Virus record (IMG/VR): IMGVR_UViG_3300008267_000892
Span: 1-41,462 of that record
Reading direction: 5' to 3' (one strand)
From: a virus
DNA: 41,462 nt
Shown: positions 14,895-33,563 of the stretch, piece after piece
How the letters are laid out: each line of letters starts with the position of its first letter
Numbering within the stretch: position 1 is the first letter of the stretch
The notes under the pieces: model-generated
Told to the model about the DNA's origin: nothing
Databases searched by the model: none
The model's input: the letters and a program-made list of their open reading frames with translations, nothing else
Program-made: the position numbers and the translations under genes

Positions 14895-14922
14895 ACCCAA
14901 CAGAAATGTTGGGTTTTTTTTT
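14895..14922 (+). terminator. Intrinsic terminator after the capsid gene
   Basis: Eight-bp stem ACCCAACA/TGTTGGGT with a GAAA tetraloop and nine T (14914-14922). Confidence 0.93.
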
Positions 14923-14991: not shown

Positions 14992-15756
14992 ATGAAAGAA
15001 ACACCTTCTCAACTCAACATCCCTAGTTATTTAATGAATTTTCCCTTTACATTATCTACTGAAAATCCAAATAATATTTGGATGGGTTTACAATTACCCC
15101 ATATTAAAGATCGTAATGTAATGTTGTTATCAAATTATACTTCTGAACCAAGACGTGGTGAAGAATGGGTTGGGAAACGTTTTTTTGATATGATGGGGTA
15201 TGAAACTTTTGTATGTCCTCATAAATGGGAGGGTGAGGCTGATTTAAAATATCTTAAAGATAACATTTATATAGGAGGATATGGACAGCGCTCAATCCTA
15301 GAAGCATATGAATGGATGGAGAAAAATTTTGATATGAAAATTATTAAATTAAATATGGTTGAACCTTATTTATATCATTTAGATTGCTCTGTATTTCCTT
15401 TAACAAATGAAAAAACAATGATTTGTACTTCACTATATGATGAAAATGAATTAAAAGAGCTTAAAAAATATACTAAAATTATAGATATAAGTGAAGATGA
15501 TGCTTTTGGAGGAATTACAAATTCAGTACGATTAGGCAATATGGTTTTATGTGCTTCAAATATTTCTGAATTAAAAAAAGGTGAAGAACTATATGAATTA
15601 GAAAAAACTAAAATTAATAATTTAGAAAAAATATGTGGGGATGAAGGAATGGAACCCATCATATTCAATTTATCTGAATTTATGAAAAGCGGTGCTCTTC
15701 TCTCTTGTATGGTGCAGCATTTGAATCGAGTAGATATTAATAAAAAACTTATTTAA
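14992..15756 (+). CDS. Guanidine-modifying enzyme (DDAH/arginine deiminase/amidinotransferase superfamily)
   Basis: Predicted enzyme acting on arginine-like guanidino groups through a covalent cysteine intermediate. The 254 residues carry the superfamily pattern in order: WEGEAD (79-84, normally EGEGD), IGGYGQRS (94-101, normally GYGxRT), LYHLD (127-131, catalytic H129), NSVRLGN, and LSEFMKSGALLSC (227-239, catalytic C239). Length fits the DDAH/agmatine deiminase-like group. The product could be citrulline, ornithine or a transferred amidino group; the sequence does not decide. It follows the capsid terminator and lies four bases ahead of a phosphatidylserine decarboxylase-like gene, so the two are likely co-expressed. 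A near-match TATTTACA lies 17 bases upstream. Confidence 0.85.
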   Translation: MKETPSQLNIPSYLMNFPFTLSTENPNNIWMGLQLPHIKDRNVMLLSNYTSEPRRGEEWVGKRFFDMMGYETFVCPHKWEGEADLKYLKDNIYIGGYGQRSILEAYEWMEKNFDMKIIKLNMVEPYLYHLDCSVFPLTNEKTMICTSLYDENELKELKKYTKIIDISEDDAFGGITNSVRLGNMVLCASNISELKKGEELYELEKTKINNLEKICGDEGMEPIIFNLSEFMKSGALLSCMVQHLNRVDINKKLI

Positions 15757-15759
15757 AAT

Positions 15760-16476
15760 ATGAGTAAATCCTTAGAACAATGGCTCGATGAAGACGTTGC
15801 TAAATGCGATAAAATGTCTATTAAAAAACTATCACATGAATTTTTCTTTCGCGATCCAGCAAGACCAAACTACATAGATAACGAACATTTCTACTCACCA
15901 TGTGACGGAACAATCCTATATCAAAAATTTGTTCAACCAACCGAACAAATAATTGAAATAAAAGGTATTAATTATACCTTAAAAGATGTTATGGGTGATA
16001 AAGATTTCAATAAACCTTCCCTTGCTATAGGTGTTTTTATGTCATTCTATGATCCACACATAATTCGCATGCCCCATGGTGGAATAGTGCGTTATAGACA
16101 CTTAGATCCAATAGAATCAACTAATAGACCAATGTTGGCTGTTGAAAAAGACATATTAAATGCTGTTATTAATCCCAACAATATGGATTATGTAAAATAC
16201 AATGAACGAATGGTTATAGAATGTTATTCACCTTCATTAGATTATACTTACTATGTTGTCTTAATAGCAGATGAAGATGTAGATGTTATATGCCCTTTCC
16301 ACCCAGAACAGAATGAATTATTTACTCAAAACCAAAGATTTGGACTGGTAAGATGGGGTAGTATGACAGAGATAATATTAGTAGAAGATGAAAGATATGA
16401 TTTTGAACCAATCCAACCAGATACATGGCATGTGGAAGCGGGTATTGACAAGCTTGTAAAAATAGTAATTAAATAA
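15760..16476 (+). CDS. psd: Phosphatidylserine decarboxylase-like pyruvoyl enzyme
   Basis: Predicted pyruvoyl-dependent decarboxylase. Family members self-cleave at a Gly-Ser bond and turn phosphatidylserine into phosphatidylethanolamine. Visible motifs are FFRDPARPNYID (29-40), SPCDG with the triad Asp (D49), GVFMSFYDPHIIRMPHGG with the triad His (H100), and RFGLVRWGSMTEI, where G200-S201 replaces the usual LGST self-cleavage site. There is no membrane helix at the N-terminus. All three triad positions are present, so activity is plausible, but the substrate could be another serine-headed molecule. It is coupled to the upstream guanidine-modifying gene and lies next to phoH. Confidence 0.85.
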   Translation: MSKSLEQWLDEDVAKCDKMSIKKLSHEFFFRDPARPNYIDNEHFYSPCDGTILYQKFVQPTEQIIEIKGINYTLKDVMGDKDFNKPSLAIGVFMSFYDPHIIRMPHGGIVRYRHLDPIESTNRPMLAVEKDILNAVINPNNMDYVKYNERMVIECYSPSLDYTYYVVLIADEDVDVICPFHPEQNELFTQNQRFGLVRWGSMTEIILVEDERYDFEPIQPDTWHVEAGIDKLVKIVIK

Positions 16477-16484
16477 TATTTATA
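16477..16484 (+). promoter_or_regulatory. Candidate late promoter, TATTTATA overlapping TATAAATA
   Basis: TATTTATAAATA (16477-16488) contains both the window's recurring octamer and the T4 late consensus TATAAATA. It lies 10 bases before the PhoH ATG at 16495. Confidence 0.5.
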
Positions 16485-16494
16485 AATAAAAATT

Positions 16495-22772: not shown

Positions 22773-23669
22773 ATGAATAAAGTTTATTGGTTTACAGGTC
22801 AGCCGGGTGCTGGAAAAACAGTTTTGTCTAATTTATTAAAAGAGTACTTAGAAAAACAAAGCACGCAAAAAGTTTTTCACATCGATGGTGATGAACTTAG
22901 AGCTCTTTTCAATAATACCAAATACGGTAGAGAGGGAAGAGAAGAAAACATCAAACGAGCTCAGGATATTGCTAAATTTATGTTTTATGGAGGACACAAT
23001 GTTATAGTTAGTTTAGTAGCTCCTTATAGGGAATTGCGTGAATCTTTTAAAGCTGCTTTAGGCGATAGTATAGTTGAATTATATGTACATACAACGGATG
23101 TACGTGGTAGAGAACATTTCCACACAACAGAATATGAAGCTCCACTTACCAACTTTATAGACGTTGATACAACAAACACTACACCTCAAAACTCTCTAAA
23201 ATATATTTTAGAAAAACTAGGACACTGGTCTAAAGTAAATCATGGTGGGTCACCAACAAATAATCCTGACAAAAAATATGCAGTATTTGTTGGTAGGTAT
23301 CAACCTTATCACTATGGTCATATAAAGTTAATTGAGCAGAAATTAAAAGAAGGAATACCGGCTTTAATAATGGTGCGTGATATTGAACCGGATGAAAAAA
23401 ATCCATTTACAACAGAACAAACACTACAGATGATAAAAAAGTATCATCAAGCTAAAGGTGATGATGTGCAAGTAATAGTAATTCCTGACATTGAATCTGT
23501 AAATTATGGAAGGGGTGTAGGGTATGAAATAAATGAATTTACACCACCAGATAACATTGGGTTTATTTCTGCTACAAAAATAAGAGAGTCTATTAAGAAT
23601 AATGACGATTCGTGGAAAGAAATGGTACACGAATCAATACAAGAAGATATAATTAGTTATTTAAAATAA
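22773..23669 (+). CDS. cysC: APS kinase fused to an HxGH-type nucleotidyltransferase
   Basis: Bifunctional enzyme of 298 residues. Residues 1-150 form an APS kinase domain: P-loop GQPGAGKT (9-16), HIDGDELR (36-43), NIKRAQDIAKFM, an APYRELR motif (83-89, family ISPYR) and YEAP (121-124). Residues 168-298 form a cytidylyltransferase-like fold domain with VGRYQPYHYGH (173-183), RDIEPDEKNPF and ISATKIRES (265-273). The first domain would make PAPS from APS. The second could make APS from ATP and sulfate, but its motif is closer to NadM-type adenylyltransferases than to classic ATP sulfurylase, so that step is inference. It lies between the sulfotransferase and a DUF2061 gene. Confidence 0.88.
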   Translation: MNKVYWFTGQPGAGKTVLSNLLKEYLEKQSTQKVFHIDGDELRALFNNTKYGREGREENIKRAQDIAKFMFYGGHNVIVSLVAPYRELRESFKAALGDSIVELYVHTTDVRGREHFHTTEYEAPLTNFIDVDTTNTTPQNSLKYILEKLGHWSKVNHGGSPTNNPDKKYAVFVGRYQPYHYGHIKLIEQKLKEGIPALIMVRDIEPDEKNPFTTEQTLQMIKKYHQAKGDDVQVIVIPDIESVNYGRGVGYEINEFTPPDNIGFISATKIRESIKNNDDSWKEMVHESIQEDIISYLK

Positions 23670-28859: not shown

Positions 28860-29630
28860 ATGGCTATTTATAAAAATTCACCACCAGACACACATAACTT
28901 TATTCAAGCAACAGGAATAACAGATAGAACCCAAATTACAGCGGTATCTACTCTTGTTGCTGATTTAAAGTATGCGGGTATATGGAATAAAATGAAAGCT
29001 ATATATCCTATAGTGGGAGGCACTGCTGCTGCTCATAAATTCAACTTAAAAGATCCTCGTGATTTAGATATAGCTTATAGATTAACTTTCACAGCAGGTT
29101 GGGTACACTCAAGTACAGGAATGTTGCCTAATGGTAGTAGTGATTATGCTAACACTTTTTTAAATTCAAATTCAGTTTTATCATTAAATGATGCTCATGT
29201 ATCATTTTATTCACGCACAAATAGTGACTCAGGTTGTGACATAGGATTATTTGATTCAATGGCTAACAGTGCTACGCAAATATTTCCAAAATCATCAAAC
29301 ACGCGTTACGTAAGAATGTTTTCCTCATTTACAAGTGTTTCGACAACTGAAAATACTGCTGCTTTTTATTTGAATAGTAGATTGTCAAGTACTCAAATGG
29401 TCGGTTATCGAAATGGTAGTGTTTTACAAACAGTTAATCAAAATAGTATCTCAAAGATAAATGCAAATTTTTCAATAGGAGTAAGAACAGTAGTTGGGGG
29501 TACATTTGATAATTATTCAAATAGACAATGTGCCTTCGCCTCAATCGGAGATGGTTTAACAGATACTGAAGCAGCAAACTTCTACACAGCAGTACAAAAA
29601 TTTCAAACAACTTTAGGACGTCAAGTGTAA
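28860..29630 (+). CDS. Adhesin-like paralogue 1 (intact reference copy)
   Basis: The 256-residue product is the most complete of four related genes. Shared blocks are an N-terminal FIQATGITDRTQITAVSTLV, LKYAGIWNKMKAIYPIVGGT, TFTAGWVHSSTGMLPNGSSD, and a nearly invariant end CAFASIGDGLTDTEAANFY then FQTTLGRQV. The middle (about 110-220) varies and resembles a beta-sandwich lectin-like domain. I recall this family in Bacteroidetes phages in the fibre region, likely receptor-binding or tip proteins. It is directly followed by the next paralogue (two bases). Confidence 0.75.
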   Translation: MAIYKNSPPDTHNFIQATGITDRTQITAVSTLVADLKYAGIWNKMKAIYPIVGGTAAAHKFNLKDPRDLDIAYRLTFTAGWVHSSTGMLPNGSSDYANTFLNSNSVLSLNDAHVSFYSRTNSDSGCDIGLFDSMANSATQIFPKSSNTRYVRMFSSFTSVSTTENTAAFYLNSRLSSTQMVGYRNGSVLQTVNQNSISKINANFSIGVRTVVGGTFDNYSNRQCAFASIGDGLTDTEAANFYTAVQKFQTTLGRQV

Positions 29631-30288: not shown

Positions 30289-30990
30289 ATGGGACTAATA
30301 CTAAGCAAATTATCAGGAGCAAGAGGTTATTTAAACTATGGAAGAGGTATCGATAGTGATGCACAAGCATTTCTTACTGCTGCTAGTATTACAAACATAG
30401 TTCAACAAAAAGCAGTTAATGATTTAGTAATAGCTTTAAAAGGTTATAGTATATGGAATAAAATGAAAGCTGGTATGTTACCTAATGGAACAAGTGATTA
30501 TGCAAATACTAGTTTAAATTCACTAACAAATCTAACGAGTACTAGTAATCATTTGTCTTTTTATTCACGTTCTACAAGCGTTGGACTTGAGTGTGAAATT
30601 GGTAACGCTGATACTGTGACTCAAAAGTTTTTTCAATTAAGAGCTGCTAGTAATTTTGCAAGCGGCGGAGCTGGAACCGCTGTTAATTTTACCACAACTT
30701 TAGACGCTAAAGGTTTTTGGATAGGTTCAAAAAGAGCAGATAATGATAGGGAAGTTTACTTAAATGGAATAAGCCAATCTACAATAACAACGAATGATAC
30801 AACAGTATTATTTAATGGTAATGTATATATAAGTGCAAGAAATCAAGCTTCATCAAGTCCGCCAACAGCTTTATATTCAACAAAACAATGTGCCTTCGCC
30901 TCAATCGGAGATGGCTTAACAGACACTGAAGCAGCAAACTTCTATACAGCAGTACAAGCATTCCAAACAGCACTTGGTCGTCAAGTGTAA
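30289..30990 (+). CDS. Adhesin-like paralogue 3 with in-frame internal deletion
   Basis: The 233-residue product shares the start (DAQAFLTAASITNIVQQKA), the KGYSIWNKMKA block and the invariant end CAFASIGDGLTDTEAANFY through LGRQV. However, KMKA is joined directly to GMLPNGTSDYAN. The block of about 39 residues between them in paralogues 1, 2 and 4 (IYPIVGG through GWVHSST) is gone without breaking the frame. The variable middle domain is full length and differs from the other copies. Likely expressed; whether it still folds is uncertain. Confidence 0.72.
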   Translation: MGLILSKLSGARGYLNYGRGIDSDAQAFLTAASITNIVQQKAVNDLVIALKGYSIWNKMKAGMLPNGTSDYANTSLNSLTNLTSTSNHLSFYSRSTSVGLECEIGNADTVTQKFFQLRAASNFASGGAGTAVNFTTTLDAKGFWIGSKRADNDREVYLNGISQSTITTNDTTVLFNGNVYISARNQASSSPPTALYSTKQCAFASIGDGLTDTEAANFYTAVQAFQTALGRQV

Positions 30991-32747: not shown

Positions 32748-33563
32748 ATGCCATTAAGAATATCAAAAAGTGGATCAACAGTAACAACTTTTAAAATTTT
32801 AAATTTTGATAGTGATGCACAAACATTTCTAACAGCAGCAGGAATAACAAATAGTACACAACAAAACGCTATAAATAAATTAACTATTGATTTAAAGTAT
32901 TATGGTTTGTGGACTAAAATGAAAGCATTGTATCCTATAGTAGGAGGTACAAGTGCTGCTCACGCAGTTAATCTTAGAACGCCTGGAACTTATAACTTAT
33001 CATTTACTGCTGGATGGACGCATTCTCTAACAGGAATGACTCCTAATGGAACAAGTGATTATGCAAATACTAATTTAAACATGTCTACAAACTATAGTGT
33101 AAATGATAGTACACATATTTCCTTTTATTCAAGAACTGCAAGTGCTAATAGCACAGATTACGAAATGGGCGTTTATAATGGTTCAACTGTAACTGGCTTA
33201 AGTCTAAGAAGAAGTGATGGAGCCAACTCAACATATTTCGGAATCAACACCAATGCATATATCTCATTTACAGACTCTAATGCCGCTGCTTTTTATATTT
33301 CAAATAGATTGGGTACAGCAATGAATGGCTGGAGAAATTCAACAAAAATGGTAGCAAACACTAACACAGCATTAACAAGACCAAATTTAAACATGTTTAT
33401 AGGAAACCTTAACGTTAATGGAACACCGGATTCAGGACTGTGGTCAACAAGACAATGTGCATTCGCTTCAATCGGAGATGGCTTAACAGATCAAGATAGG
33501 AAGACAAGTGTAATAAAAATAAGAACCAATTCCTCTGCCATATTTATAACAAAATTTAACTAA
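32748..33563 (+). CDS. Adhesin-like paralogue 4 with altered C-terminus
   Basis: The 271-residue product matches paralogue 1 through DAQTFLTAAGITNSTQQNA, MKALYPIVGGTSAAHAVNL, GWTHSLTGMTPNGTSDYAN and CAFASIGDGLTD. It then diverges to DQDRKTSVIKIRTNSS and further unrelated residues. The DNA shows why: a net deletion of about 44 bases removed most of the conserved end. The original GGAAGACAAGTGTAA (coding GRQV and stop) is still visible at about 33501-33515, but in another frame. Translation then runs into the former intergenic region, including the promoter-like octamer at 33541, and stops by overlap with the gp13 start. The changed tail may harm folding, or may be an assembly fault. Confidence 0.7.
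   Translation: MPLRISKSGSTVTTFKILNFDSDAQTFLTAAGITNSTQQNAINKLTIDLKYYGLWTKMKALYPIVGGTSAAHAVNLRTPGTYNLSFTAGWTHSLTGMTPNGTSDYANTNLNMSTNYSVNDSTHISFYSRTASANSTDYEMGVYNGSTVTGLSLRRSDGANSTYFGINTNAYISFTDSNAAAFYISNRLGTAMNGWRNSTKMVANTNTALTRPNLNMFIGNLNVNGTPDSGLWSTRQCAFASIGDGLTDQDRKTSVIKIRTNSSAIFITKFN
33541..33548 (+). promoter_or_regulatory. Candidate late promoter octamer TATTTATA
   Basis: Perfect octamer in CATATTTATAACAAAATTT, 14 bases before the gp13 ATG at 33563. It lies inside the read-through tail of paralogue 4, consistent with that tail being former intergenic DNA. Confidence 0.5.

Follow-up and report, generated by a model that had tools for sequence, protein, structure and literature searches.

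The window, by which we mean the whole stretch of 41,462 nucleotides analysed here, is a virus record with a T4-type portal, head protease, major head protein, PhoH and tail sheath. By its major head protein, the closest isolate is Flavobacterium phage immuto (60%); in that phage, different genes lie between the head protein and PhoH. In the window this interval holds a pair of genes with the following features:

14895..14922, plus strand: terminator-like hairpin and T run that follow the major head protein gene and set it apart from the pair (the hairpin is listed as a minus-strand site, and the T run is read on the plus strand)
14992..15756, plus strand: ArgZ-type arginine dihydrolase-like pentein of 254 aa (relatives about 304 aa), assigned from NF052232, the fold of a relative, and residues
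15084..15085, plus strand: junction of a 150-bp in-frame deletion that removes the Asn71-equivalent segment, from comparison with the related locus L046
15760..16476, plus strand: PSD-superfamily (phosphatidylserine decarboxylase) pyruvoyl-type decarboxylase of 238 aa, assigned from PF02666, the ORF and residues
15904..15906, plus strand: codon of Asp49, equivalent to E. coli PSD D90
16057..16059, plus strand: codon of His100, equivalent to E. coli PSD H144
16357..16362, plus strand: codons of Gly200-Ser201, with the predicted self-cleavage site between them (cleavage inferred from the family)
16360..16473, plus strand: predicted alpha chain (residues 201-238); it differs strongly from its counterpart in the nearest relative, whereas the beta chain does not

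The dihydrolase-like gene lies upstream and ends 3 bp before the decarboxylase starts. Just before phoH, at 16481-16488, the word TATAAATA resembles a T4 late promoter, and it is mildly enriched in the window (20 observed, 10.8 expected). Further along, a 1148-aa protein at 18261-21707 matches phrog_25468, of unknown function, over ten stretches, and the gene at 22773-23669 joins an ATPase/kinase-like N-terminal part to a cytidyltransferase-like C-terminal part. Three matches to phrog_17104 (28860-29630, 30289-30990, and 32748-33563) apparently form a paralogous family of unknown function.

The ORF at 15760-16476 matches the Pfam family PF02666 far beyond chance (E 4.6e-20, 72.6 bits against a cut-off of 22), as well as PHROG 12670, of unknown function (1e-33). 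Its residues 49, 100, 200, 201, and 202 are Asp, His, Gly, Ser, and Met. D49, D98, H100, and G200-S201 correspond to D90, D142, H144, and G253-S254 of E. coli PSD, whose published catalytic triad is D90/D142-H144-S254 (PMC7952604), and none of the five varies across 31 phage and bacterial sequences. The site of the second E. coli histidine, H147, is occupied by R103, as it is in the class II PSDs of the bacteria that carry both genes (see below). Phe93 replaces the phosphate-binding Tyr137 of the E. coli enzyme, but since class II PSDs also have Phe, this position does not discriminate. The AF2 model is moderate (pLDDT 78.9) and matches known folds weakly: PsiD, a tryptophan decarboxylase, is the one PSD-superfamily chain among its 50 best matches (probability 0.98, TM 0.40, E 0.04). 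Judged by its sequence, the ORF is thus a PSD-superfamily member whose self-cleavage machinery is intact. The highest Kyte-Doolittle mean over 19 residues is 0.92 in the window enzyme and 0.88-1.42 over 114 copies, none of which has a transmembrane-like stretch by this measure. The decarboxylase is probably soluble, and its amphipathic N-terminal helices could touch membranes. These results bear out three points of the sequence-only reading: a PSD-like enzyme with a D49, H100, and S201 triad, an intact Gly-Ser self-cleavage site, and the absence of a membrane helix. That reading also pointed to WGSM as an unusual cleavage motif to be compared across relatives; the motif is present, but it is peculiar to the window copy, with GSQ found in 110 of 114 relatives.

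The 254-aa partner is matched by both arginine dihydrolase and dimethylargininase models. Against the equivalog-domain model NF052232 (NCBIfam), the window copy, 50 aa shorter than its relatives, scores 66 bits and does not reach the cut-off of 450. When the family profile is compared with the PDB, the cyanobacterial arginine dihydrolases AgrE and ArgZ are matched at 1e-20 to 1e-22. A full-length relative (L046) was modelled by AlphaFold2 with a pLDDT of 91.8, and ArgZ/AgrE structures take the first 13 places among its PDB fold matches (best TM 0.81 by query, 0.89 by target), ranked well above the amidinotransferases listed (E about 1e-21 vs 1e-11). The equivalents of N22, N71, R90, E118, R139, H168, D170, and C264 are kept in 107-110 of 110 partner copies, that of Cys264 having been assigned by hand, beyond the HMMER-aligned range. 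We take N71 and C264 to be catalytic in ArgZ/AgrE from the titles of PDB entries (an N71S covalent intermediate and C264S/A substrate complexes), and presumably Asn22, Glu118, and His168 are catalytic as well. R90 and R139 are assumed to hold the substrate alpha-carboxylate, which points to an amino acid substrate, so that hydrolysis would come before decarboxylation. As modelled, the partner family has an ArgZ/AgrE-like arginine dihydrolase fold with a conserved active site.

Pairing of the two genes is near-obligate. Searching from the decarboxylase side, both are present in 103 of 106 viral loci, and from the partner side in 77 of 78, these two sets overlapping by some shared contigs. Of the three exceptions in the first set, two are cut by the contig start, while Campylobacter phage NCTC12673 has its partner gene elsewhere in the genome; the sole exception in the second set is cut by a contig end. 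Every testable environmental viral contig has the decarboxylase and dihydrolase together, and the genes overlap by 1 bp in 87 of the 99 phage loci scored. In one distant phage contig (L139), about 540 bp lie between them. Of 50,697 isolate records, the decarboxylase is present in 45, every one of which has the partner too, but because these represent few lineages (NCTC12673-type Campylobacter phages and one Bacteroides phage group), they do not count as 45 independent events. In NCTC12673, the one Campylobacter phage examined in this respect, the genes are separated by 43 kb; therefore simple linkage does not explain the pairing. The Campylobacter phage genes are annotated as “phosphatidylserine decarboxylase” and “amidinotransferase,” and we found no role described for either.

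The pair also occurs in bacteria. One scan of 84,980 species yielded 15 loci with 38-64% identity, among which L031 resembles a flavobacterial phage contig and L041 a prophage. The dihydrolase adjoins the decarboxylase in 14 of the 15, the remaining locus being truncated by its contig end. In bacteria the decarboxylase comes first and the dihydrolase second, with an exporter of the MATE or ABC type third in most loci where the next gene is readable: MATE in L033, L034, L038, L040, L042, L043, and L044 (by sequence, with five confirmed by Pfam) and ABC in L035 and L039, while L037 has no clear third gene after the pair. This module is found in bacteria of at least five phyla, and bacterial copies from five phyla form a single clade, suggesting horizontal transfer. 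It is rare: in wider sampling, the decarboxylase occurs in 2 of 396 and 2 of 298 genomes, and a close partner match twice in 289. Plasmid collections gave only distant matches to ordinary PSD and DDAH. When 10 module bacteria were checked for ornithine/arginine decarboxylases, a single PF02784 match (perhaps LysA) was found in five, and PF01276 exceeded its cut-off in none.

Taken together, we give about even credence to the decarboxylase being a soluble, self-processing, pyruvoyl-dependent enzyme of PSD fold that works outside of lipid metabolism and follows the dihydrolase in a two-enzyme module, its substrate most likely being L-ornithine and its product putrescine. We infer ornithine decarboxylation from the partner only. 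In the first step, the ArgZ-type dihydrolase (14992-15756, in its full-length relatives) would convert L-arginine into L-ornithine, 2 NH3, and CO2. The decarboxylase would be cleaved between Gly200 and Ser201, turning Ser201 into a pyruvoyl group. The product of the first step, an amino acid, would then be bound by this group as a Schiff base and decarboxylated, L-ornithine to putrescine being the most likely reaction. The phage might thereby gain a small polycation during infection, and in the module bacteria the product is probably exported. Neither spermidine synthase nor SpeD was found in the phage records searched, so there the product would stop at putrescine.

The strongest competing explanation is that another amine is made. 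Here the PSD-fold enzyme would act on arginine, yielding agmatine, or on a different amino acid, and the pentein would act on the product or transfer an amidino group, the end product being a specialised metabolite that bacteria export. The MATE and ABC exporters behind the bacterial pair would also suit a specialised amine, the partner in Campylobacter phages is annotated as an amidinotransferase, and nothing in the decarboxylase itself fixes the substrate. However, the Asn22/Asn71 dihydrolase signature is preserved in the partner, as are both carboxylate-type arginines, and the fold ranking likewise favors ArgZ/AgrE over amidinotransferases. We regard this explanation as rather unlikely.

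The copies in the window have peculiarities of their own, which raise the question of whether the pair is decaying in this phage, with neither product made. The deletion costs the dihydrolase 50 aa, including the equivalent of catalytic Asn71, which is retained in every other phage copy aligned. If the deletion is real and not an assembly artefact, the loss of that region may break the pathway in this contig. The decarboxylase, compared with L046, has a dN of 0.004 over codons 1-200 and 0.305 over codons 201-238. This leap in divergence, which sets in at the Gly-Ser cleavage codons and concerns 16357-16473, looks as though the alpha chain had been swapped, and no closer donor for the segment was found among the loci fetched; either recombination or an assembly join could account for the break. 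Loss of the Asn71 equivalent, a divergence that starts at codon 201, and a GSM unlike that of any relative would all suit decay with a replaced alpha chain. On the other hand, both frames are open, the remainder of the dihydrolase and decarboxylase is under purifying selection relative to the nearest relative (dN/dS 0.045 and 0.016), and an assembly join could yield both features, so that decay seems improbable. These defects weaken the pathway claim for this genome, not for the family.

The sequence-only reading proposed a remodelling of host phospholipid head groups, and the corresponding explanation is that the enzyme is a true PSD that shifts the host PS:PE balance during infection, with the dihydrolase a mere neighbor. 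It draws on PF02666 membership, the intact residues, and the annotation of the Campylobacter phage copies. Yet the decarboxylase misses every NCBIfam PSD equivalog cut-off (best 52.7 bits against 183, others further below), has no transmembrane anchor, and no lipid gene is seen next to it; in the bacterial modules its neighbors are the dihydrolase and exporter. The pairing with the dihydrolase holds over phages and bacteria, even when the genes are unlinked, and 9 of 10 module-bearing bacterial genomes also have another PSD-family gene. Compared with the other PSDs of the same bacteria, the module decarboxylases lack the N-terminal hydrophobic segment, and the class II motifs are altered, with QIAGLIARRI replaced by IADEDV or IADYDV and GSR by GSQ, a change in charge that would suit a cationic substrate. 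Because its near-constant partner would break down arginine, the decarboxylase more likely helps to turn arginine into a small amine, for instance putrescine, than to remodel lipids. Lipid remodelling is thus unsupported, and a true PSD is a quite improbable identity. The other substrate that had been suggested, a soluble serine compound, fares better in part: solubility agrees with our results, but the partner speaks for an amino acid derived from arginine rather than for a serine compound. Finally, although Campylobacter phages of the NCTC12673-type group carry dADG DNA (PMC6884629), a role for the pair in 7-deazaguanine or other DNA modification was dropped, as no link to the pair was found.

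Returning to the arginine-to-putrescine proposal, we tentatively extend it, with somewhat less than even confidence, to the whole family: a PSD-fold enzyme turned into a decarboxylase of ornithine or a closely related amino acid would form, with the ArgZ-type dihydrolase, a two-gene route to putrescine without PLP or other added cofactors. This route would be shared by T4-like phages found in marine samples, by phages of Bacteroides and Campylobacter, and by rare bacteria from several phyla, in which an exporter joins the pair. The pairing offers the two annotated Campylobacter phage genes a candidate joint function. If the proposal is true, a new enzyme fold is added to phage polyamine metabolism, and a further fold to ornithine decarboxylation. 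Viral psd is classed under phospholipid metabolism in a marine survey (PMC11360552), and our results advise caution when surveys of auxiliary metabolic genes interpret viral PSD matches as lipid remodelling.

Several known systems can be compared with this module. A survey of virus polyamine enzymes (PMC9992855, PNAS) lists arginase, ODC, ADC, and SpeD derivatives, and neither “phosphatidylserine” nor “dihydrolase” occurs in its main text; no paper combining PSD with pyruvoyl and ornithine decarboxylase turned up in a literature search either. The SpeD-derived pyruvoyl ornithine/arginine decarboxylases of phages (PMC9992855, PMC10407285) are likewise phage-encoded and pyruvoyl-dependent, and they feed putrescine, but they belong to a different family from the PF02666 enzyme of the window; the SpeD-type family PF02675 has no match in nine phage records. 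With class II bacterial PSD and archaetidylserine decarboxylase (PF02666; PRK05305, TIGR00164), the module decarboxylase has in common the D...DxHxxR...GS core, short length, and proenzyme cleavage site. Unlike them, it has no N-terminal transmembrane-like segment, carries GSQ instead of GSR and IADxDV instead of QIAGLIARRI, and has extra IKGxxYxL and NxPMLxxEK segments as well as a partner gene. It resembles E. coli PSD (6L06/7CNW; PMC7952604) in the D90/D142-H144-S254 equivalents and in IKGxxYxL, which is similar to the E. coli AKGHNYSL, but differs in having Arg for H147, a pathway partner, and no comparable N-terminal membrane-binding domain. The L-tryptophan decarboxylase PsiD (8X4Q) is fungal, is longer, and has an aromatic substrate, and its fold match is modest (TM 0.40), yet it sets a precedent for a PSD-superfamily enzyme acting on a free amino acid. 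As for the partner, it is a stand-alone protein of about 304 aa (50 fewer in the window copy) without the ornithine cyclodeaminase domain of ArgZ/AgrE (6JV0, 6LRF), but it has the same fold, and its relatives carry all of the active-site residues compared.
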